Assembly: GCA_038400315.1 (NCBI GenBank)
Contig: CP151667.1
Span: 1,499,174-1,563,173, forward strand
Source of the DNA: Isosphaeraceae bacterium EP7
Lineage (GTDB): Bacteria > Planctomycetota > Planctomycetia > Isosphaerales > Isosphaeraceae
Direction of reading: 5' to 3'
Length of the DNA: 64,000 nucleotides
Below, piece after piece: positions 27,796 through 50,155 of this stretch (within the stretch, counting starts at the first letter, position 1; each line of letters starts with the position of its first letter). The translations under genes and the position numbers were made by a program. The notes beneath the pieces were generated by a model. The model was not told the origin of the DNA. It did no database searches and saw only the letters and a list, made by a program, of their open reading frames with translations.

Positions 27796-29979
27796 TCAGA
27801 GCGTGAAGTGGAACGTCTTGGTGATCATCCGCCAGAGCCAGCCGGCCACCGTCTGCGATCCGGCATCGATCTTGGCGAAGCCACGGAGGCCCGACTGGAG
27901 CTCAAGGTTTTCATTGTCGATGGGGACGATGACCTCGTAAACCGCCGTTAGCGGATTGAGCTGGCCGGTCTTCTGGTCCTGCTTGGTGGCGATCTCGCCG
28001 CCGCCGGTGTTGGATAGCTCGGGCCGGATGTCGGAGCTGTTGCGGGTGGCCATCATGCTGACCTTGCCGAGGAAGGTCTGCTCGCTGTGGCCGTAGACCT
28101 TCACCCAGGCCCTGGCATCGGTGCGCACCATGTCGTAATCCGACTGGTCGATGATGATGTGGGCCTCAAGCCGCTTGGGGTCGCCGATCTCGCAGATCGG
28201 CTTGCCCGGCTTGAGATGCTGGCCCACCGTCTCGGGGTGGGGCATGCCCATCACCTGGCCGTCGCGTTCGGCCACCAGGACGAGCTTGCCGACCTGCTCG
28301 TTGAGCTTCTCGACGACGGGCTCGAGGTCGGCGGCCATCTTGACGTTCAGGACCATCTGGGCCTGGCTCATCAGGTCGGCGCTGGTGCTGAACCAGCGTG
28401 CCTTGTCGAAGTGGCTGTCGTGCTGCTCCTGGAGCATCAGCCGCTCGCGGAGCTTCTCCGGATTGGAGAGGGTCGCCAGGACCTGCCCCTTCTTCACCCA
28501 TTCGCCGTCGCGGACCCGCAGGTCCTTGAGGATGCCGGGGACCTCGGCGTAGACGTACTGGGGCTTGGCCGGCTGGAGCACCATGGAGCCCTGGAGTCGG
28601 AGCGGAGTCGGGATGCTGAGGATCGCCACGACGGCGGCCAGCGCCACCGCGGCGAAGCTGGCCGCGCGTACCTTCTTCACCTTGCGCATCCTCCCGGGAG
28701 TGCGGACGAATTTGATGACCTGGTAGAGGGGCATCCCGACCATCGGGATCAGCGATCCGATCGCAAGCGCGGCACTGATCGACCCCAGCTTGTAAGGCTT
28801 CAGGAACTGGTACAGGAAGAAGAGGATGCTGAACGTGACGACCCAGCGATAGACATAGCTGGCGACGGCATAGGTGACGAACAGCCCTCGTCTCGATCGC
28901 GGCATGTAGCTCTGCACGGGCACTTCCAGCCCCAGCACCTTCTCCTGGAACATGTAGGTGAAGAACTGGGTGCTCTTGATCCGCAGGTTGGGGATCTCGA
29001 GGAAGTCGGCCGTGACGTAGTAGCCGTCGTACCTCAGCAGGGGGTTGGCGTTGAACAGGATGGTGTTCACCGAGCAGATGAACATCGTCGCCAGGCAGAG
29101 GCTGTTCAGGAGCCCTTGCTCGGTGTTCCACCAGACGAAGGTGGCCAGCGAGGCGAGGAAACACTCGACGTAGATGCCCGCCGCGCTGATCCAGATCCGC
29201 TTCCACTTGCTGGGAAGCAGCCAGCTGTCGGTGACGTCGCAATAGAGGGCCGGCGTGAGCACGAGGAGCAGGGCCCCCATCTCGTGCACTTCGCCGCCGA
29301 AGTGCTTGGCGGTCAGCCCGTGGCCGAACTCGTGGATCACCTTGATGATCGCGAGACTGCACCAGAAATAGATGATCGTCGACCAGTTGAAGAAGCTCTG
29401 GAAGTCGGGCAAGCGGCCGCTGAAGGTCGACCACTGGCTGATGACCAGCGTGATCGCCGCGAGCATCATGCCGACGCTGACGACGATGAAGGTCCTGGTG
29501 TAAAGCCAGCGGAAGTATGGATACATCCAGGTCAGCAACCGCTCGGGGTCGATGATCGGGACCTTGATGTAGAGGATGTTCGCCAGGAACGACCAGACCT
29601 GCTTCATCGCCTTCTTGCGGCGTCTGGTGATGAGCGCCTTGGCCTGGTCGGGGCTGTCGATCTGGGCGATCCCGGCTTCATGCAGCTGGGCGGCGAACCG
29701 GACGAGGTCCTCGACGGAGATCGTCTGCGGCCGATACTTCCGCTCGAACGCCCGCTTGACGTCCTGGAGGTTGTTCTTGCCGTCGAACTGCTGGAGCAGG
29801 AAGTACTCCTCGATCTTGAATCGGAAGTACTTCAGCGCGATCGGGTCCTTGATGACGTAGTGCGTCATCCCCTCATAGAACTGGGGCTGGACGATCAGGT
29901 CGGGCCGCAGCTTGACTTGCAAGTGCTCGGCGGCCTGGCCCATGGGGGTGACCGGCGCGATGGATGGGGCGGCACTCAT
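27796..29979 (-). CDS. PqqD-like / M50 site-2 protease-like / lipoyl-domain membrane protein
   Basis: A 727-residue protein. Residues 22-110 look like a PqqD-type winged helix (IVQPQFYEGMTHYVIKDP, KYFRFKIEEYFLLQQFDG). A polytopic membrane region follows with the zinc site HEFGH at 216-220 inside a helix and the second half-site NANPLLRYDGYY from residue 310, both typical of M50 site-2 proteases. Further helices run to about residue 455, then a barrel-sandwich (lipoyl/biotinyl-like) adaptor part begins (YAEVPGILKDLRVRDGEWVKKG), with a coiled coil and a beta-barrel to the end. Family members act beside peptide or antimicrobial exporters. It is the last gene of a three-gene cluster, 125 bases behind the short adaptor gene. 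Confidence 0.87.
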   Translation of the reverse strand: MSAAPSIAPVTPMGQAAEHLQVKLRPDLIVQPQFYEGMTHYVIKDPIALKYFRFKIEEYFLLQQFDGKNNLQDVKRAFERKYRPQTISVEDLVRFAAQLHEAGIAQIDSPDQAKALITRRRKKAMKQVWSFLANILYIKVPIIDPERLLTWMYPYFRWLYTRTFIVVSVGMMLAAITLVISQWSTFSGRLPDFQSFFNWSTIIYFWCSLAIIKVIHEFGHGLTAKHFGGEVHEMGALLLVLTPALYCDVTDSWLLPSKWKRIWISAAGIYVECFLASLATFVWWNTEQGLLNSLCLATMFICSVNTILFNANPLLRYDGYYVTADFLEIPNLRIKSTQFFTYMFQEKVLGLEVPVQSYMPRSRRGLFVTYAVASYVYRWVVTFSILFFLYQFLKPYKLGSISAALAIGSLIPMVGMPLYQVIKFVRTPGRMRKVKKVRAASFAAVALAAVVAILSIPTPLRLQGSMVLQPAKPQYVYAEVPGILKDLRVRDGEWVKKGQVLATLSNPEKLRERLMLQEQHDSHFDKARWFSTSADLMSQAQMVLNVKMAADLEPVVEKLNEQVGKLVLVAERDGQVMGMPHPETVGQHLKPGKPICEIGDPKRLEAHIIIDQSDYDMVRTDARAWVKVYGHSEQTFLGKVSMMATRNSSDIRPELSNTGGGEIATKQDQKTGQLNPLTAVYEVIVPIDNENLELQSGLRGFAKIDAGSQTVAGWLWRMITKTFHFTL

Positions 29980-30104
29980 GGGTTCGTCGGCCCTCGCGGT
30001 CTTCGGTCTGGGCGGCCTTGGGTCGTTCTTGTGGGGTCAGACTGGGGTGCGGCACGCGACACGGGGCCGCACCCTTGGGCGAATTGGATGGTCAAGTCCG
30101 CGAC

Positions 30105-31049
30105 TCAGCGAGGCTGGTTAGCCGCACCCTGGGTCAGGTTGGGGGCGGCGGTCGGCTCGTTGGTCAGGTGGATGGTCATGCGCGCCTTCAGGCCCGGGCG
30201 AAGCTCGCCGTTGGGGTTCTCGAACTCCGCGTAGATCCGCACCGAGGCGTCGCCGATCGGCTGGATCCGGGGGTCGATGAACGTCACCTTGCCGCGGAAG
30301 ACCTTCGATGCGAACGGGTTCACGCCGCCGCCGCTGATGACGGGCTGGAGGTCGACCAGCTGGCCTTCCTTCACCTTGTAGGACTCATCCACGGGCACAT
30401 ACGCGAAGGCGCGAAGGCGGGCGAGGTTGCCCATCCGCACCACGGCCTCGTTGGCCCTGATGCTCTCGCCGGGCTGGCGGTGGACCTCGATGATCACGCC
30501 GTCGATGGGGGCGCGAATCGTGTGTTCTTCGAGGATCTGCTGATTCAGCTCCAGCTCCGCCACGTCGATGGCGGTCTTCTCCTGGGCCTCGGTCTGCGTC
30601 GCCTCGGCGATGTTGACCTCGGCCTCTTCCTTGCGGAGCTGTTCGCTGGAGACGCTGCCCGCCGTCTTGAGATTCAATCGCTTGCTCGTCGCGAGCACGG
30701 CGAGAGCGTGGTCGTACTGGGCCTTGGCCTTGGCCATCGGGGCCTTGGCACGTGCGGCAAGCTGGGCCTTCTTCACGCTCAGCTCGGCAACTTTGCGGTG
30801 CAGGTGGCCGATCTCGCCCCCCGCGATCACCGGCTTGCCGATGGTCAGCTCCAGCTTCTCGATGACCCCTTCGCGAAGAGCCGCCACGTCGGACTTCTCG
30901 ATCCAGTCGATCGTCACCTCGTTGAGCACCAGGGTCGGCACGCCCACCGGATTCGGGGGGGCGGGGGCCTGGGGCTCGGCGAACGAGGCGGCGGAGAGGG
31001 CAACCATCGACCCGGCCGCCAGGGCGAACATCTTCTTGGGCACCAGCAT
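30105..31049 (-). CDS. short HlyD/RND-type periplasmic adaptor
   Basis: A 314-residue protein with an N-terminal signal (MFALAAGSMVALSAASFAE). Residues 50-80 and 178-200 form the two halves of a lipoyl-like barrel (GVIEKLELTIGKPVIAGGEI; IRAPIDGVIIEVHRQPGESI), separated by a helical hairpin with many Ala, Lys and Glu. A beta-barrel domain (LRAFAYVPVDESYKVKEGQ, GKVTFIDPRIQPIGDASVRIYAEF) follows and it ends LRPGLKARMTIHL. Such proteins bridge an inner-membrane transporter and an outer-membrane partner. The start ATG 31049 has a perfect GGAGG six bases upstream. It lies between the GAF-adaptor and M50 genes on the same strand, and no ABC or RND pump is in the cluster. Confidence 0.88.
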   Translation of the reverse strand: MLVPKKMFALAAGSMVALSAASFAEPQAPAPPNPVGVPTLVLNEVTIDWIEKSDVAALREGVIEKLELTIGKPVIAGGEIGHLHRKVAELSVKKAQLAARAKAPMAKAKAQYDHALAVLATSKRLNLKTAGSVSSEQLRKEEAEVNIAEATQTEAQEKTAIDVAELELNQQILEEHTIRAPIDGVIIEVHRQPGESIRANEAVVRMGNLARLRAFAYVPVDESYKVKEGQLVDLQPVISGGGVNPFASKVFRGKVTFIDPRIQPIGDASVRIYAEFENPNGELRPGLKARMTIHLTNEPTAAPNLTQGAANQPR

Positions 31050-31186
31050 CGTAGGCCTCCGGGGCGGTCCCGAATCTGTCGGGAGCCGGCGTTCGTTGGG
31101 TCGAAATGGGGGAGGGATGTTCGTCGTCGAAGTCCGCCGCGGGGTCATCGGCTACGGAGACCCGCGCGGCGTCAATTCCGCTCGAT

Positions 31187-33295
31187 TCAACGCAGGAAGG
31201 GCCAGCGGAACAGGACCGACTCGTAGTAGACCTGGACCACGTCGCGGAGCAGGACATAGGCCAGCCGGGCTTTCCCGCACTCGACGCGGGCTCGCACCTC
31301 GGCACCGGGCCTGATCTCAAGGTTCTGCTTGAGGAACTCGGACCGGACCTCGTCGCTGAAGCCGACGGTCACCTTGACCATGTGCTTGCCCTCGACCGTC
31401 TCGGGCTTCGAAGAGATCCGCCGGACGTAGCCGTGGTAGCGGTGCTCGGGGTCGGTGGCCGCGACGAAGTAGGCCGGCAGCCGGCTCGAAGGGGGCTTGG
31501 TCCCCTTGGCAATCTCCGTCTTCAGTCTGCTCTGTGCGGCAAGGACGGGCGCCATGTCGTCGTCGGGAATCTGGACTTCCAGCGACCAGTCGCCGTCGGT
31601 GGCCAGCACCTGGACCAGGGCCTCGCCCACCTCGACCGGCTTGTTCAGCAGGGTCTTCTTCACTTCCCAGGTCGTGATCACCCCGTCAAGCGGCGCGGTC
31701 ACCGAGAGCGACTCGATCTGATCCTTGATGATCTCGATCTGCTCCTGGGCGCTCTTGACCTTGATGGTCGCCTCGGCCTTCTGCCCCTGGATCTGATTCT
31801 TCTCCTCGTCGAGGATATTCCGCGAGCCGCCGGGGGCGAGCTGCGAGTCCAGGTGGCTGGCCCGGCTCATGGCCTCGGCCCGCTCGGCGATCTTCTCCTT
31901 GAGCTGCTTCTCCAGCTCGCGGCTCTCGATGCGGCAGAGCAGATCGCCCTTCTTCACCAGCTGGCCGTGATCGACGGGCACGTCCACCACCACGCCCCGG
32001 TCGGGAGCGTAGGTGTTCCGGCGTCCCTCGGGCAGGATTTCGCCACGCCCTTCGATCGTCAGCTCATAGGGGACGAAGGTCAGCACCAGCAGCCCGATAA
32101 TCACCGCGGAGATGGCCGCCAGGATCTTGGCGAAGGTGCGTCCGCGGAAGAACCGGCGGGGCGAGCCTGCCAGCTTCAGGAGCGGCAGCAAGGTCTTGTC
32201 GTGCTCGGACGCATTCCACAGGGCGGTCGAGGCGTGTCGCGAGACGACCTCGGTCCGGGCGTGCATGTCCGAAGGGGCGACCTCGTCGCCGATCTGCTCG
32301 GACACCAGGCAGCCGAACGGCACCTTCTCCTTGCTCGGGTCTTCCTCGGGCTTATGCAGCAGCGTGACGATGACGACCTTCGAGCCCGACTCGTCGACGT
32401 ACATCTCCAGCACGTCGCGGATGTCGGGGGCAAAGCCCTCGGTGTTCCCTGTGTAAACCAGGTCTTCGCCGCTGCGGAGCACGACCTTGCAGAGCTTGGT
32501 CATCTCGCGGATCAGGTTGGCTCGCTGCTCGACGACTTCCTGGCCGCTGACGGCCTCGATCATCGTCCGGCCGCCCACCTTCAGGCAGACGCTCAGCCGG
32601 TCGCAGCCCACCAGCCGCTTGCCGTCGTTGGCCACCGAGTAGGTGGCCTCACGCAGGTTCAGCGACGAATGGACCTGATGCGTGAACCCTTCGAGCTGAT
32701 TCCAGAGCCGCTGCTGCGACATCATCTGCCGCATCTGGCGATTCTTGAGGAAGTTCGCCGCCAGGTCCGACAGGTCGCCCACGAACCGGAGCGTGCTCTT
32801 CTGGGTGGCCGCGCGGCGGGTCGGATCCATCAGGATCTCGACCAGGCCGACCACCTGCTTGTCGACCACCAGGGGGGCCAGGATCAGGGCGTAGCCGGTC
32901 GGGTTGCCGGCATTCGGCACCCCCTCGACCGCCGCGCCCGGCGGGATGATTTGCGGCGAGTTGGCCTGCATCATGCAGCCAAGCAACGCATCGTGAGGCT
33001 GGGTTCTCACCTGCCCGTTCATCAGGCCGGTGGATCCGAAGTTCAGGTGATGCTGAAGCTTCAGGCTACCGCGACCGTCGAGCATCCAGAGCGCGCCGCC
33101 GGAGGCCGCAACGGCCGCCACGGCGCGATTGAGGAACTCGACGTGGAACTCGGCCGGCTGGATGTCCGACTCGGCCAGTTCGGCGATCTCGGCCACCAAC
33201 TTGCGGATCTGGTTTTTCGTCTGCTCGAGCAAGCTCGGGTCGATCGTCTCTTCCGGCATGTTGGTGGTTCCCGCCCGGTTGGTGCCCGCGTCCAT
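31187..33295 (-). CDS. GAF-domain protein fused to HlyD-type adaptor
   Basis: A 702-residue protein of unusual build. Residues 45-180 read as a GAF domain (AAVAASGGALWMLDGRGSLKL, GYALILAPLVVDKQVVGLVEIL), and 205-365 look like a second GAF-like unit (SLNLREATYSVANDGKRLVG, DRLSVCLKVGGRTMIEAVSG). One membrane helix lies at 389-408. The outer part has lipoyl-like halves at about 428-460 and 528-560 around a coiled coil (ELEKQLKEKIAERAEAM, EQIEIIKDQIESL) and a final beta-barrel. It could sense a cytoplasmic ligand and signal across the membrane to the adaptor. Starts ATG 33295 and ATG 33259 are both possible. First gene of the cluster, divergent from the epimerase. Confidence 0.85.
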   Translation of the reverse strand: MDAGTNRAGTTNMPEETIDPSLLEQTKNQIRKLVAEIAELAESDIQPAEFHVEFLNRAVAAVAASGGALWMLDGRGSLKLQHHLNFGSTGLMNGQVRTQPHDALLGCMMQANSPQIIPPGAAVEGVPNAGNPTGYALILAPLVVDKQVVGLVEILMDPTRRAATQKSTLRFVGDLSDLAANFLKNRQMRQMMSQQRLWNQLEGFTHQVHSSLNLREATYSVANDGKRLVGCDRLSVCLKVGGRTMIEAVSGQEVVEQRANLIREMTKLCKVVLRSGEDLVYTGNTEGFAPDIRDVLEMYVDESGSKVVIVTLLHKPEEDPSKEKVPFGCLVSEQIGDEVAPSDMHARTEVVSRHASTALWNASEHDKTLLPLLKLAGSPRRFFRGRTFAKILAAISAVIIGLLVLTFVPYELTIEGRGEILPEGRRNTYAPDRGVVVDVPVDHGQLVKKGDLLCRIESRELEKQLKEKIAERAEAMSRASHLDSQLAPGGSRNILDEEKNQIQGQKAEATIKVKSAQEQIEIIKDQIESLSVTAPLDGVITTWEVKKTLLNKPVEVGEALVQVLATDGDWSLEVQIPDDDMAPVLAAQSRLKTEIAKGTKPPSSRLPAYFVAATDPEHRYHGYVRRISSKPETVEGKHMVKVTVGFSDEVRSEFLKQNLEIRPGAEVRARVECGKARLAYVLLRDVVQVYYESVLFRWPFLR

Positions 33296-39763: not shown

Positions 39764-42700
39764 TCAGAACTTGATGCCGAAGGCCTTCTCGAAGAACGAC
39801 TCCTTCTTGTTGGCCGCTGCCTTGATGGCTGCGGCCTTCTTCTTGGCCGCCGCGGTCGCCGCGTCGGCTGCGGCCGTGTCGGTCTTGGTGGTGTCGGTCT
39901 CGGCCGGGATGGTCGAGGTCGGGGCGAGATCGCCGGTCGGCGTCGCGGCCCCCACGATCGGCTTCGCGGCCGAGAGCTTGGAGGACGACCCGTTCAGCGT
40001 GGCCGCCGTCAGGTTCGCCAGGTTGACTCGTTGCGTCGGGGTCGTGGCCGTGGGGGCCGTGTTGTTGACGATCGCCGGCTGCGTCTTGGCGGGGTCGGGC
40101 GTGGTGACCGTCACCTTCGACGTCGGTTCGGGCGTCGGGTTGACCTTCTTCTCGATCGGGGTCAGGGGCCTGATCGACCCGTCGAAGAGCGCGAGGAACG
40201 GGGAGCTGAAGGCCGAGGAAATGCCCTTGTTGACGCCGAACTTGTTCGGGCTGATGCCGCGGAACCTGGCAACCTGCTGCTTCGAGACCCAAGCATACTT
40301 GGGCAGCGTGTGCTGCAGGTCGGTGGTGTTCCGCTTGGCGTCGGGGTTGACCAGGAATCCGTTGGCCGAGGCCCGCTGACGGTCCACGATCACGGCGGAG
40401 TCGGGAACCGGCATCACGTTGTGGTCGAGGTTCTTCAGCTCGGAGATCGGGATGACCCCCTGAAGCGACCCGTGGGCGGCGTATTCCAGGAAGTTGAAGC
40501 GACGCTGGAGCACGTCGGGCTGGTCGGGCTGGTCAGGGGTCGTCAAGGCAGCGTAGACAGGGCTGGTGAGGTCGACCACGCCTTCGGCACTGCGTTCGTT
40601 GCCGCCGAGCAGTCGGGCCATGGCTCCGGCCTCGGCCATCCCGGTCTTCGCCGAAGTATTGACGAAGTCCTGAACTTCCTGGGCCGAAAGCAGCGCGTCT
40701 TTGTTCGCGTCGATGATTTCCAGGTAACCGCGCGGAATCAGGTAATCCAGCGCGATCTTGGTCTCGATCGCCGCGATCGCGTTGCCCACATCGACCCGGG
40801 CGTACGACCTGGGCTGGAGGCCACCGAAGAGGGTGTAGGTCAGGGCCAGGGTCGTCGAGTCGTTCGCGTCGGTCACCGGAACGGCCGTCCAGGAAAGGAT
40901 CGCGTTGATCCCGTCCGGGTTGTTGTAGGCGCTCAGGTTGGTGATCGCCTTCTTGCCGAAGTTCAGCTGATTGACGCCCACGGGTGTCGTGAGATACCCG
41001 TCCACGGTCGAGTCGGACAGCCGGATGGTGTCCCAGTACGACAGGGCCGACTGCACGAGGGCATACGAGCCGGTCGCCACCGCGGCGGACAGCGATGTCC
41101 CGCCTTCCTGCACCGTGTTCAGGATCAGGCCCGAGCTATCCACGGCGGCCGCGGCGCCGGTGCCGCCGGTGACGGTCGTCCTGGCGAAGGTGGGGACGTC
41201 AACGGCCGGGGCCACGTAGTCGGTGGTGATGCTCCGGTTCGTCGCCGCGATGAGCTTGTCGGAGTAGATCGTGATGTTGCCGTTGGTCAGCGACGCGATC
41301 GAGCTCGAGAGCGTGGTGTTCAAGGCCCCGGTGTTGCCGTAGAGCAGGACCGGCCCCAGGGTGCTGGGCAGCACGCCCGTCTCCGGGTCGTTGGGCGTGG
41401 AGTACACCCCGGCGGTGTAGGGATAAGGGATCGTCCCGCCGACGGAGAGCACTTCGTTCAGCACCGCCGGCAGCGACATGCCGTTGACGTCGCCGATGCT
41501 GGGGTTCTGCGTGCTGTTCGTCGCGCCAAACGTGTTGCCGCCGGTGGTGCCGCCACCAGTTCCGCCGCCGGTGCCGGTCGTGGTGGAGCCAGCGGGGGCT
41601 CCGAACTGGCCCGCCGCGGCGATCGGGGCGATTCCCAGCGAGCGGAACTTCTTGAGCTGGTTCTTCAGCGAGGCGACGATCTGCGGATACCGCTTGTAAG
41701 CGGTCATCTCGGTGTCGAACGTCTGAACCGTGCCGAAGCCCATCGAGGTCGCGATGACCCTGGCCTGGTTCAGAGGACGAACCGGATCCTTGACGAACGG
41801 ATGCTTGGTGACGTACCCGAGGCCGTCATAGAAGTTCTGCGGAGACGAGACCGCGTTGGAGGTCTGCGACGTGGTGGTGGCGCCACCCGTCCCGCCCGTC
41901 GTGGTGCTGGACTGCGACGAGCTCAGGAATGGGTTGAAGATATTGACCGGCATGATGGTCGCTTGGGGAACGAACTGGGCGATGACGCCTGCGACGATCG
42001 TTCCGTGGCCAGCCGCTCCGGTGATCGAGAGCCCTGTCCCGCCCGTCCCAGTTCCGGTTCCGGTTCCGGTTCCGGTTCCGGTGCCAGTTCCACCGGTTCC
42101 GCCTCCGCCTGCACCACCTGCACCACCTGCACCGCCTGCCCCACCAGTTCCGCCCGTCCCGCCAGTTCCGCCCGCAGCGGTTCCTGGAGCGGTCGCCGGC
42201 GAGAGGTCCACGTTCCCGGCACCATTCGTGATGATGTTGGAGCCGGTCGAGACCCGTCCGCGGAAGTTGGGGTTATTGGCGTCCACGCCGCTGTCGATGA
42301 CCGCGACGGCCGCGTCCTGCCCGTCGTAGGGCACGCCCAGGGTCCGCAAGTCATTCAGGCCGACGATCGCACCCGTGGCCGAGCTGGCCAGGCTCGACGA
42401 GCTCTTGAACTGCCAGATGCCGTCGTCGTCCGAGGCGTACAGGGTGGTCCCGTCGGCCGAGAACGTGATCGTCAGGCTCGACAACGAGAACGCCGTCGAG
42501 TCCAGCGCACCGTTGGTGTTGAAGTTCTGGGCGAAGTTATACACCGTGCCATCCGGAGTGATCCGGACGATGCGTCCACCCGTGTTGAATACGCCGAGGT
42601 CGGCGTCTCCGATCCCGGGGATTCCCTCGGGGTTGAAGTTTTCAACCAGGAACGAGCCGATGGCCTGGATCGGTGCGAGGGTCGTCGTGGTGGTCCCGGT

Positions 42701-44065
42701 CGCACCGGGCACGGTGCCGACGGCCGCCAGACCCGACGCCAGGTCGGACACGAAGAGGTTGCCCGCGTAGAGCGGGGTCGGGTCGATGGTCGGGTTTACG
42801 TTCTGCCCGACGAAGACGAGGCTGGAATCGGCGACCGGCGTCGGTGCGGTGACGGTCCCGGTGATCGAGACACCCTGCGAGAAGTACCCAAACCTGTCGA
42901 ACGCCGCGTCCTGGAACCGCCGGAACGTCGTCGGCAACGCGGGATAGGTGTCGATGAGCGGGGTAATGGTGGCGGGGAAGTTCCCCTGGTTGATGATCAG
43001 CTCGCCGTTGGAGCCCTGGATCCCGCTGAACCCGTCCGTGGCGGGGATACCGCCGCCCGCGGGGGTTCCGAAGTCGGTGAACACCGAATAGACCGGCGAT
43101 TCGTAGAGCGTGTTCGCCGACACCAGGGCGACCTGCGGCCCTAGGTTCATCTTCGACTGGGTCACGCCAGTCGGCAGCAGGGAGGCGTTGCTGATCGCCT
43201 GGCCTGGCCGGTAGACATTGGCATCGAAGAAGAGCGCCGAGAAGTTGCCCGTCCCCGTCGTTCCGTTCACGGCTCCGGTCGTGGAAGCTCCGGTGCCGGT
43301 GCCCACGAACAAGCCGCGAAGGAAGTTCTGCTGCTCGGGCGGCGGCACCAGCACCGCCGACGGGTTGATGGTCAGACGCAGGGCGGTCTGGCCGTCGGTC
43401 ACATAGGTGAAAGCACCCATGAACGACCCGTCGGGGGCGATCCGGTAGACGGCATCCTTGTTCGGATTGGCGCGGTCGGCCGTGCTCACGAACATGGAGG
43501 GTCGGCCGTCGAAGTAGCCTTCCATGTCGAACGCGATGTCGTACCAGTTGACCAGGCCCGTGGCGGCGCCCACGCTGGCCGCCGCCGTGCCGCCCGGCTC
43601 ATTCTGGGCGATCACGGTGTTCAGGTCGAAGAAGACCGACGACTTGCCGGTGGCCGTGTCCACGCGGTAGATCACGCCGGGGCGGTTGACCGCCGTCGTG
43701 CTCGAGCCCGCACCACGCGAGATGGCGAAGATGGCCTTGCCGAAGTCGCCGCCGGGGCCCGCCTCGATCTTGACGATGTCGCCACCGAAGGCTTCGTCCA
43801 GGCTCGTCAGCTGAGAGACCGTGGTGTAGGGAGCCGCGGTCGGGAACGCTGGGTCGGTGATGCCCTGATTGATCTGGGTCGTGTAACCGTTGACGGTCGT
43901 GCTCGGCTGGGTCGAGAACGCCGTGGCCACCACCGTCGTTGGAGATGCAGAGACGAACGGTGCAAGCACCTTTCGCTCTTCGAGCTGCTGGATCTGCTCC
44001 AGCTTGAGTTTGCGCGGGCTCCGCCGCGAGGGGCGATCGTCCCGGGGTCGGGAAGGATGAGACAT
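39764..44065 (-). CDS. large subtilisin-like (S8) surface protein with propeller-like insert and EF-hand
   Basis: A 1433-residue protein. The N-terminus is basic with LEERKVLAPFVSAS at residues 28-41, a planctomycete secretion-type motif rather than a classical signal. Residues 95-560 hold repeated WYDIAFDMEGYF/FDRFGYFSQG-like and TFSADGTTLYASDDDG strands, as in beta-propellers. The S8 triad follows: Asp591 (VAVIDSGVD), His687 (AAGHGTIVAGVIA) and Ser991 (EGGTSLSAAVATGS). A Gly/Thr-rich repeat separates Asp and His. The usual oxyanion-hole Asn is replaced by Gln820 (AAAGQFG). A calcium-binding EF-hand (DANKDALLSAQE) starts at 1119, and the tail is Ala/Lys-rich. ATG 44065 has TAGGAGA upstream, a strong start. 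Confidence 0.87.
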   Translation of the reverse strand: MSHPSRPRDDRPSRRSPRKLKLEQIQQLEERKVLAPFVSASPTTVVATAFSTQPSTTVNGYTTQINQGITDPAFPTAAPYTTVSQLTSLDEAFGGDIVKIEAGPGGDFGKAIFAISRGAGSSTTAVNRPGVIYRVDTATGKSSVFFDLNTVIAQNEPGGTAAASVGAATGLVNWYDIAFDMEGYFDGRPSMFVSTADRANPNKDAVYRIAPDGSFMGAFTYVTDGQTALRLTINPSAVLVPPPEQQNFLRGLFVGTGTGASTTGAVNGTTGTGNFSALFFDANVYRPGQAISNASLLPTGVTQSKMNLGPQVALVSANTLYESPVYSVFTDFGTPAGGGIPATDGFSGIQGSNGELIINQGNFPATITPLIDTYPALPTTFRRFQDAAFDRFGYFSQGVSITGTVTAPTPVADSSLVFVGQNVNPTIDPTPLYAGNLFVSDLASGLAAVGTVPGATGTTTTTLAPIQAIGSFLVENFNPEGIPGIGDADLGVFNTGGRIVRITPDGTVYNFAQNFNTNGALDSTAFSLSSLTITFSADGTTLYASDDDGIWQFKSSSSLASSATGAIVGLNDLRTLGVPYDGQDAAVAVIDSGVDANNPNFRGRVSTGSNIITNGAGNVDLSPATAPGTAAGGTGGTGGTGGAGGAGGAGGAGGGGTGGTGTGTGTGTGTGTGTGGTGLSITGAAGHGTIVAGVIAQFVPQATIMPVNIFNPFLSSSQSSTTTGGTGGATTTSQTSNAVSSPQNFYDGLGYVTKHPFVKDPVRPLNQARVIATSMGFGTVQTFDTEMTAYKRYPQIVASLKNQLKKFRSLGIAPIAAAGQFGAPAGSTTTGTGGGTGGGTTGGNTFGATNSTQNPSIGDVNGMSLPAVLNEVLSVGGTIPYPYTAGVYSTPNDPETGVLPSTLGPVLLYGNTGALNTTLSSSIASLTNGNITIYSDKLIAATNRSITTDYVAPAVDVPTFARTTVTGGTGAAAAVDSSGLILNTVQEGGTSLSAAVATGSYALVQSALSYWDTIRLSDSTVDGYLTTPVGVNQLNFGKKAITNLSAYNNPDGINAILSWTAVPVTDANDSTTLALTYTLFGGLQPRSYARVDVGNAIAAIETKIALDYLIPRGYLEIIDANKDALLSAQEVQDFVNTSAKTGMAEAGAMARLLGGNERSAEGVVDLTSPVYAALTTPDQPDQPDVLQRRFNFLEYAAHGSLQGVIPISELKNLDHNVMPVPDSAVIVDRQRASANGFLVNPDAKRNTTDLQHTLPKYAWVSKQQVARFRGISPNKFGVNKGISSAFSSPFLALFDGSIRPLTPIEKKVNPTPEPTSKVTVTTPDPAKTQPAIVNNTAPTATTPTQRVNLANLTAATLNGSSSKLSAAKPIVGAATPTGDLAPTSTIPAETDTTKTDTAAADAATAAAKKKAAAIKAAANKKESFFEKAFGIKF
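42032..42175 (-). repeat. Gly/Thr/Ala-coding microsatellite in the S8 gene
   Basis: This segment encodes about 48 residues of GGT, GGA and GT units. On the plus strand it contains tandem GGTTCC hexamers (about 42052-42085) and CACCTGCAC nonamers. The unit lengths are multiples of three, so slippage keeps the frame. It sits between the catalytic Asp and His of the protease and probably forms a flexible loop of variable length. Confidence 0.85.
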
Positions 44066-44436: not shown

Positions 44437-44784
44437 TTACTCGCCGGAGACGGGACGAGCGGCGAAGCCCTGCTGGGCCGTGCCGGCGCGGCGACGGACG
44501 TCCAGCTCGATCGAGCCGAACATGCCCTCGTGGCGCTGGATCGTCATGCTCAGGGCGGTCAGCAGCCGCTTGGCGGTGTAGAAGTTCATGACCAGCCGCT
44601 GGTTGGCCTTCACGTCCTGACGGCCCGCGGCGAACGGCTGGGGGTTGAGGCCGAAGTCGAGGATGACCTCTTCCGGGGTCGCCGTCACACGGCAGAAATT
44701 CGAGTACGACGGCACGGTCGCCGAATCGTCCACCACGACTTCCGTCTGCTGCTGGGCTTGTTCCGGCGTCTGTTCTTCGGTCAT
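44437..44784 (-). CDS. DUF3467 family protein
   Basis: A 115-residue protein. After an acidic Gln-rich N-terminus (residues 1-23) it follows the DUF3467 pattern: YSNFCRVTATPEEVILDFGLNP, then NQRLVMNFYTAKRLLTALSMTIQRHEGMFGSIEL. The family is of unknown function; some members lie near chaperone or proteolysis genes. It lies 144 bases behind waaA on the same strand and just ahead of an intrinsic terminator, so it may be expressed from the waaA transcript or its own promoter. No membrane segment is present. Confidence 0.85.
   Translation of the reverse strand: MTEEQTPEQAQQQTEVVVDDSATVPSYSNFCRVTATPEEVILDFGLNPQPFAAGRQDVKANQRLVMNFYTAKRLLTALSMTIQRHEGMFGSIELDVRRRAGTAQQGFAARPVSGE

Positions 44785-46522: not shown

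Positions 46523-50155
<3,633 letters not shown>

Follow-up and report, generated by a model that had tools for sequence, protein, structure and literature searches.

Three adjacent genes of the window, the whole 64,000-nucleotide stretch of DNA analyzed here, form a conserved envelope machine whose association goes beyond chance. We put at roughly 0.7 the probability that this trio is the inner-membrane and periplasmic core of a secretion system that works in one step and without an ABC transporter, in which a short SecA ATPase would serve large, repeat-type cargo proteins that carry an LExRxLL leader. The pairing of leader-bearing cargo with one gene of the trio, gene A, is well supported, and we infer leader binding and cleavage, a SecA motor, a pore formed by the M50 domain or another protein, exit through TolC, and a GAF gate. 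The original prediction for this DNA had suggested a stand-alone machine for peptide processing and export or for envelope signaling. Our results support an envelope machine that is conserved, that has a PqqD-like domain of the leader-binding type, and that is not regularly accompanied by an ABC pump; they do not support the stand-alone character or the small-peptide cargo. Also missed in that first reading were a leader-bearing gene and a DUF3467 gene in the window and a short SecA gene elsewhere in the genome.

Architecture and conservation of the trio

All three genes lie on the minus strand, separated, as first described, by gaps of 137 and 125 bases. Gene A (27796 to 29979, 727 aa) encodes an RRE/PqqD-like N-terminal domain (about residues 15 to 110), an M50 site-2-protease-type membrane domain, and a C-terminal HlyD/lipoyl adaptor. 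Gene B (30105 to 31049, 314 aa) encodes a HlyD/RND-type periplasmic adaptor whose N terminus looks by eye like a signal peptide, and gene C (31187 to 33295, 702 aa) combines a GAF region at the N terminus with a single strongly hydrophobic segment (residues 391 to 409) and a HlyD/lipoyl adaptor. Pfam confirmed the earlier call of two HlyD-type adaptors beside an M50 protein that itself ends in an adaptor, with matches to Peptidase_M50 and HlyD_3/HlyD_D23 in A, HlyD_D23/HlyD_3 in B, and GAF_3 and HlyD_3 in C; NCBIfam gave HlyD-type matches in all three alike. At six loci of two families (L048, L049, L050, L052, L053, and L084), B is enlarged to about 630 to 690 aa, and the added part of the only one scanned, that of L048, is a WD40 beta-propeller.

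The M50 motifs of gene A read HEFGH and NPLLRYDGYY in the window. HExxH, the pattern by which active sites were counted after HE[FL]GH had given an undercount, is conserved in 54/54 planctomycete copies of A and in 72 of 73 named copies, the sole exception being a gene call cut at its N terminus. A strict pattern for the second motif matched 47/54 planctomycete and 73/73 named copies. Against the daptide metalloprotease model NF041824, gene A scored 171.4 bits, below the curated cut-off of 300.

The PqqD-like domain predicted on A was not called by Pfam in the window copy, but PF05402 matched 43 of 48 N termini of the family (47 plus the window copy, 13 of 60 nonredundant N termini having been dropped). 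An HMM of the A N termini, searched against PDB sequences, matched just four (best E value of 0.00056), all of them either PqqD or TfuB1, a lasso-peptide RRE. The structural model of the first 125 residues (29605 to 29979, minus strand; pLDDT 87) likewise has a PqqD/RRE winged-helix fold. Foldseek placed three RRE chains at the top (leader-bound TfuB1, TbiB1) with E values of 0.007 to 0.01 and none at E<=0.001, and the best VIA match was leader-bound TbiB1 (5v1v; Z 10.4, rmsd 2.5, 87 aligned). The top VIA Z values were 10.4, 10.1, and 9.9, with PqqD (5sxy) at 8.5; a methyltransferase domain also scored 9.8. The N-terminal domain of A models as an RRE-type domain, by its fold of the leader-binding kind.

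Gene A is present in all 40 genomes of our relatives set (the window's own genome and 39 relatives) and, at E<=1e-30, in 32 of 149 genomes drawn across the Planctomycetota, where 14 genomes with weak matches only (to the adaptor part or short stretches; E values of 2e-6 to 9e-4) were scored as A negative. Co-conservation of all three genes, which had been suggested as a check, is seen: the strict order C-B-A was found at 25 of the 54 planctomycete A genes called, and most other neighbors were variable. Genes were called with a simple, self-trained script that failed on one locus (L041) and may miss or cut genes, so that our counts of linkage are approximate and likelier to be underestimates.

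A tblastn search of plasmids gave 75 records, and a scan of genome contigs confirmed at least 559 relatives and returned 80 named loci, in 74 of which A was called; the other six were dropped. Among these 74 loci, which are mostly proteobacterial, C lies directly upstream of A in 69, a short SecA gene lies next or next but one downstream of A in 68, and the C-A-SecA arrangement occurs in 64. Operons on alphaproteobacterial plasmids run in the order giant gene (12 to 38 kb), DUF3467, C, A, and short SecA, some then continuing with B and TolC; the Alisedimentitalea plasmid operon lacks DUF3467, and the Thalassospira operon lacks SecA.

As originally predicted, no ABC pump accompanies the trio in the window: a motif scan of the window's gene calls found no ABC motif, and the trio neighbors scanned with Pfam are not pumps. 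Nor did a dedicated ABC pump emerge from the homologous loci, where the ABC motif occurs in 2/61 planctomycete and 7/80 named loci and one RND-like gene was seen by eye (L058). The neighbor cluster that holds both planctomycete ABC proteins spans 5 of the 61 loci. A TolC-family (OEP) gene is linked in 10 of the 80 named loci.

The short SecA-like ATPase and the SecA-less subtype

The window genome encodes two SecA_DEAD proteins. One is the housekeeping SecA, which lies inside the window (46523 to 50155, 1210 aa) and whose SecA_SW wing-scaffold domain is matched in two stretches, a split that resembles the rearrangement reported for Planctomycetes in PMC4452313. The other is a short protein of 649 aa with SecA_DEAD, PP_bind, and a P-loop and without SecA_SW, encoded about 3.5 Mb from the trio and unlinked to it.

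Clustering of neighbors (families in at least four loci) yielded a family, mostly of 630 to 680 aa, adjoining A; the three scanned members are SecA-like and have no wing-scaffold match. In 68 of the 74 named loci the short SecA gene is the first or second one from A; this, together with the unlinked copy in the window genome, speaks against a machine that stands alone. An unlinked pump that always accompanies the trio had been proposed as something to look for, and the partner looks like the short SecA, which is found in 38 of the 40 genomes of the relatives set (the window's own included; two of the 38 as fragments), G015 and G025 having a long SecA only. Linkage (>200 bits) was seen at 11/61 planctomycete trio loci. 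On five plasmids, A is followed by a gene for a 638- to 668-aa protein that is 40 to 45% identical to the window genome's short SecA over 509 to 611 residues and is annotated as a translocase, SecA, prepilin peptidase, helicase, or hypothetical protein. The short SecA recurs beside A in Proteobacteria, in Desulfomicrobium, and in one Nitrospiraceae genome.

In a quick unrooted tree (19 named rows, every third named short SecA being taken and about two-thirds left out), the housekeeping SecAs of E. coli and the window pair with each other (SH-aLRT 100) apart from 40 short ones, which indicates that the short SecA is not a recent truncated copy. The housekeeping pair attaches on the planctomycete side of this tree, so that the tree does not establish a single clade for the short SecAs. 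At L207, in a genome without A (G107), a short SecA gene occurs with no A, B, or C called nearby and in an apparently different gene context.

A and adaptors, in some cases together with TolC, also occur in stretches that lack a SecA-like gene: plasmid loci of E. coli, Azospirillum, and Cupriavidus, and planctomycete loci L075, L076, and L088 to L090. The giants at these loci were assigned to DUF4347 by annotation (Azospirillum), by Pfam (L075), or by clustering and eye (the rest, the start of the Cupriavidus cargo being unseen), and those leaders that were read are of the same type (LESRQLFDGA, LEERIVLDA). The leader and A, both kept at these loci, thus appear to be the invariant pair, with a motor that may vary or come from elsewhere; the SecA-less subtype is the main weakness of the SecA-motor part of our proposal. 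One such locus, L178 on E. coli plasmid NZ_CP081687, encodes a giant Ig-like protein with the LESRQLFDGA leader, TolC, two HlyD adaptors, and an M50-HlyD protein. The variant was found in 24 of 5426 E. coli genomes, with the M50-HlyD gene on plasmids in 21 of 25 places. Locus L058, from a single-contig genome without a short SecA (G025), has A and B near a gene that by eye resembles an RND pump, and this gene, with the short SecA absent, points to a possible alternative partner.

Leader-bearing giant proteins as candidate cargo

A candidate cargo gene lies 6.5 kb beyond the trio (39764 to 44065, minus strand). Its 1433-aa product carries an LExRxLL-type leader with the core LEERKVL (43964 to 43984, minus strand; context LEQIQQLEERKVLAP), and Pfam found no domain in it. 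It matches the leader profile described below with an E value of 5.1e-5, although that profile includes it as one of its rows; the NCBIfam model NF012209 (LEPR-XLL) matched neither this protein nor, at E<=0.001, anything else in its genome. The same genome has further leader-bearing large genes (L115:2-4648 and L117:513-11297), one of which encodes 3594 aa with subtilase and Ig-like domains. At two other loci, leader-bearing giants were seen by a second trio copy (L057:11527-19500, with DUF5649 repeats, and L080:12344-19501).

All 7/7 plasmid giants whose N terminus was read carry an LExRxLL leader: those of Thalassospira (HVEPIEPRILLSADP), Methylosinus (FDTLEPRVLLNADV), Pseudosulfitobacter (LHLETFEPRVLLSADL), E. 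coli (FALESRQLFDGA), Pontibrevibacter (LDPMEPRVLLSADP), Alisedimentitalea (VVEQLEPRLLLAADF; annotated start downstream of the leader, which was read after extending the frame upstream), and Azospirillum (MALEPRFMFDAAG). An Omnitrophota protein carries it as well (MESRILLSAND), and planctomycete genes show RELEPRVVLTA, KLEERIVLDA, and SLESRTLLSA. The leader of the proteobacterial candidates is the form known in NCBIfam as the LEPR-XLL domain (NF012209).

Small modified peptides had been suggested as the substrate, an idea that the linked candidates do not support, since they are large, the smallest having about 700 aa and the largest being open frames of >12,000 aa; LEPR-XLL was found on open frames of up to 14,390 aa. 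Among genes with intact N termini (those with cut N termini were excluded), the motif occurs at the 80 named loci in 11/32 genes of >=1000 aa versus 4/539 shorter ones (Fisher, 3e-12) and at planctomycete trio loci in 9/23 large versus 4/539 shorter genes (Fisher, 4e-11). Size is confounded with the leader in these counts and contributes by itself, since in random stretches 2/18 large genes of A-positive genomes carry the leader, with 0/9 in A-negative ones. Random 20-kb samples had the motif in 3/561 genes (A positive) and 0/287 (A negative), too small a sample, and in 3/660 and 1/358 with the later pattern and gene set. In 27 of 28 leader-bearing large genes, no 15-residue mean hydropathy exceeded 1.6 as far as 30 residues beyond the motif (the remaining one reached 3.15), so that the leader, judged by hydropathy, mostly does not resemble a Sec signal peptide.

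Homologues of DUF3467, encoded in the window 11 kb beyond the trio (44437 to 44784, minus strand, 115 aa), lie between the giant gene and C in many operons. DUF3467 is the only short recurrent neighbor family that clustering gave (families in at least four loci), the LExRxLL leader is absent from it, and small precursor peptides were rejected as candidates on this result. The idea, suggested by eye, that DUF3467 is a SecB-like chaperone was also dropped: its model (pLDDT 83) gave only weak COMMD/PC4/Pur-like matches (Z<=5.8), and SecB appeared neither among the structural matches nor in the PDB sequence search, an absence that is not proof.

Since the curated LEPR-XLL model had no match in genomes of the class Planctomycetia among 149 planctomycete genomes, we built a broader leader profile (A4) from 21 planctomycete rows of ten A-positive genomes, with thresholds set after the tables had been seen and relatedness uncorrected. 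At E<=0.01, this profile matched 21 of the 32 A-positive and none of the 117 A-negative planctomycete genomes (7e-18, uncorrected for relatedness); with the ten training genomes removed, the counts were 11/22 and 0/117 (1e-10). The leader-positive genomes fall in 14 of the 20 A-positive families, six of the 14 without training rows, and 11 of the 32 A-positive genomes have no match at E<=0.01. Seven A-negative genomes match at E<=0.02 (G042, G059, G105, G107, G137, G143, and G157), and at E<=1 the profile matches 113/149 genomes, which is the noise level. At E<=1, a threshold that should give about one match by expectation, the window genome itself gives 36; of these, 11 are at E<=0.01, including the candidate cargo gene of the window.

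With the curated model, LEPR-XLL was found in 7/149 planctomycete genomes, all A positive and three of them of one genus (Fisher, 1.2e-5), and outside the phylum in 40/47 A-positive genomes and 0/14 controls; these 47 were drawn from 50 of the 80 loci, with L215, L227, and L267 left out, and two of the seven misses show visible variants (L239 and L287). Among 337 alphaproteobacteria, it occurs in 2/18 A-positive and 0/319 A-negative genomes, the pair consisting of the center genome, which was chosen for having A, and one weak match (E value of 9.2e-4). Most of these 18 genomes have distant copies of A (25 to 31% identity).

Proposed mechanism, alternatives, and known systems

We propose that cytoplasmic binding of the leader falls to A's RRE/PqqD-like domain, as the fold of this domain and the association with leader-bearing genes suggest. 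The short SecA would thread the unfolded giant through a path made of the M50 membrane domain and its partners, and the M50 site of A may cut the leader. A TolC-family channel would then be reached through the adaptor domains of all three proteins, some of the loci having OEP genes linked; C may sense or gate through its GAF region, and DUF3467 would be an accessory. In the Planctomycetia several cargo genes at dispersed sites seem to share a single trio, and in Proteobacteria the cargo often lies within the operon. We are evenly divided on a wider claim, namely, that this is a distinct secretion system in which LExRxLL is read by an RRE and cut by an adaptor-fused site-2-protease-type enzyme, with a SecA-like ATPase exporting giants without ABC, RND, or possibly SecYEG, and that it is a general route for many dispersed surface proteins in the Planctomycetia. 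If true, such a route would account for the way in which these bacteria get their giant gene products out of the cell. Giant surface proteins, both in Planctomycetes and in many Proteobacteria, would then have an assigned transporter and signal as well as a defined cargo set; RiPP-type leader recognition would be joined to protein secretion; and a module whose role was "completely unknown" in 2015 would become directly testable in cultivable bacteria.

Several of these features could be read otherwise. The RRE and M50 domains of A, its similarity to daptide and YydH/LiaK metalloproteases, and the lack of a pump beside the trio in the window would also suit a stand-alone unit for peptide processing or envelope signaling, in which the RRE-M50 protein processes a small peptide and the adaptors signal or export without a motor. 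We consider this improbable, given the short SecA by A in 68/74 named loci and in 38/40 genomes, the large size of the linked cargo candidates, and a leaderless DUF3467 as the short recurrent family from clustering. It is very improbable, too, that the partner of the adaptors is some ordinary ABC or RND pump encoded at an unlinked site and that the link to SecA is incidental. HlyD domains normally partner such pumps, and single ABC- or RND-like neighbors do occur at L043, L090, and L058, with the ABC motif in 7/80 named loci; however, ABC genes are rare neighbors overall, and it is the short SecA that recurs across Proteobacteria, Desulfomicrobium, and a Nitrospiraceae genome.

The leader, for its part, might be a sorting or anchoring signal for another system that co-occurs with A through lifestyle or lineage. 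Random large genes of A-positive genomes carry it (2/18), and relatedness is uncorrected in our genome counts, but its physical linkage to A in unrelated phyla, the 0/117 A-negative planctomycete genomes, and the RRE, a peptide-binding type of domain, on A leave this explanation a low probability. Finally, a site-2 protease domain and a GAF domain would befit a regulated intramembrane protease acting on an anti-sigma factor or similar, with C as a GAF sensor and export secondary. We consider this highly improbable, since M50 is joined in one protein with an RRE and an adaptor, and since there are operons that also encode leader-bearing giants and SecA and, in some cases, TolC.

The ABC-less secretion system that we favor invites comparison with type I secretion, which runs through HlyB-HlyD-TolC, uses LapBCE-type machines for giant adhesins, and in its classic form reads a C-terminal cargo signal. 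Adaptors are common to both, TolC genes are linked to the module at some loci, and the candidate cargo here is likewise made of giant repeat proteins; here, however, no regular ABC transporter is found, and the leader is N-terminal, unlike the C-terminal signal of classic type I cargo. To our knowledge, no secretion route has been stated for LEPR-XLL proteins. Among titles and abstract beginnings in the open-licence PMC literature, we found no paper joining LEPR-XLL or DUF4347 to the module, and a term search found no SecA in the main texts of PMC10632474, PMC6461901, PMC12288469, and PMC11573180. A shares its RRE-M50 fusion with daptide pathways, for which PMC10036551 describes RREs fused to a PF02163 (M50) peptidase and leader recognition by RREs; relative to those peptidases, A has an extra HlyD domain and giant candidate cargo.

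The closest precedent is the "secondary SecA_DEAD" module, related to type I secretion, that Kamneva, Poudel and Ward (2015; PMC4452313) predicted. According to the main text of that paper, this protein is tied to M50+HlyD, HlyD, and GAF+HlyD clusters, SecA is proposed as the ATPase and M50 as a possible pore, the broader role is called unknown, and genomes are noted in which the module's partners are not co-encoded. Our trio corresponds to the same three clusters, with a short SecA without wing-scaffold and no ABC transporter. PqqD, leader, LEPR, and DUF3467 have no match in that main text, and our literature searches did not turn up the cargo, the leader, or the recognition domain in print. 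The module is already known as a prediction; what we add to it is the RRE domain, the SecA-less variant, and a probable cargo class together with its leader.
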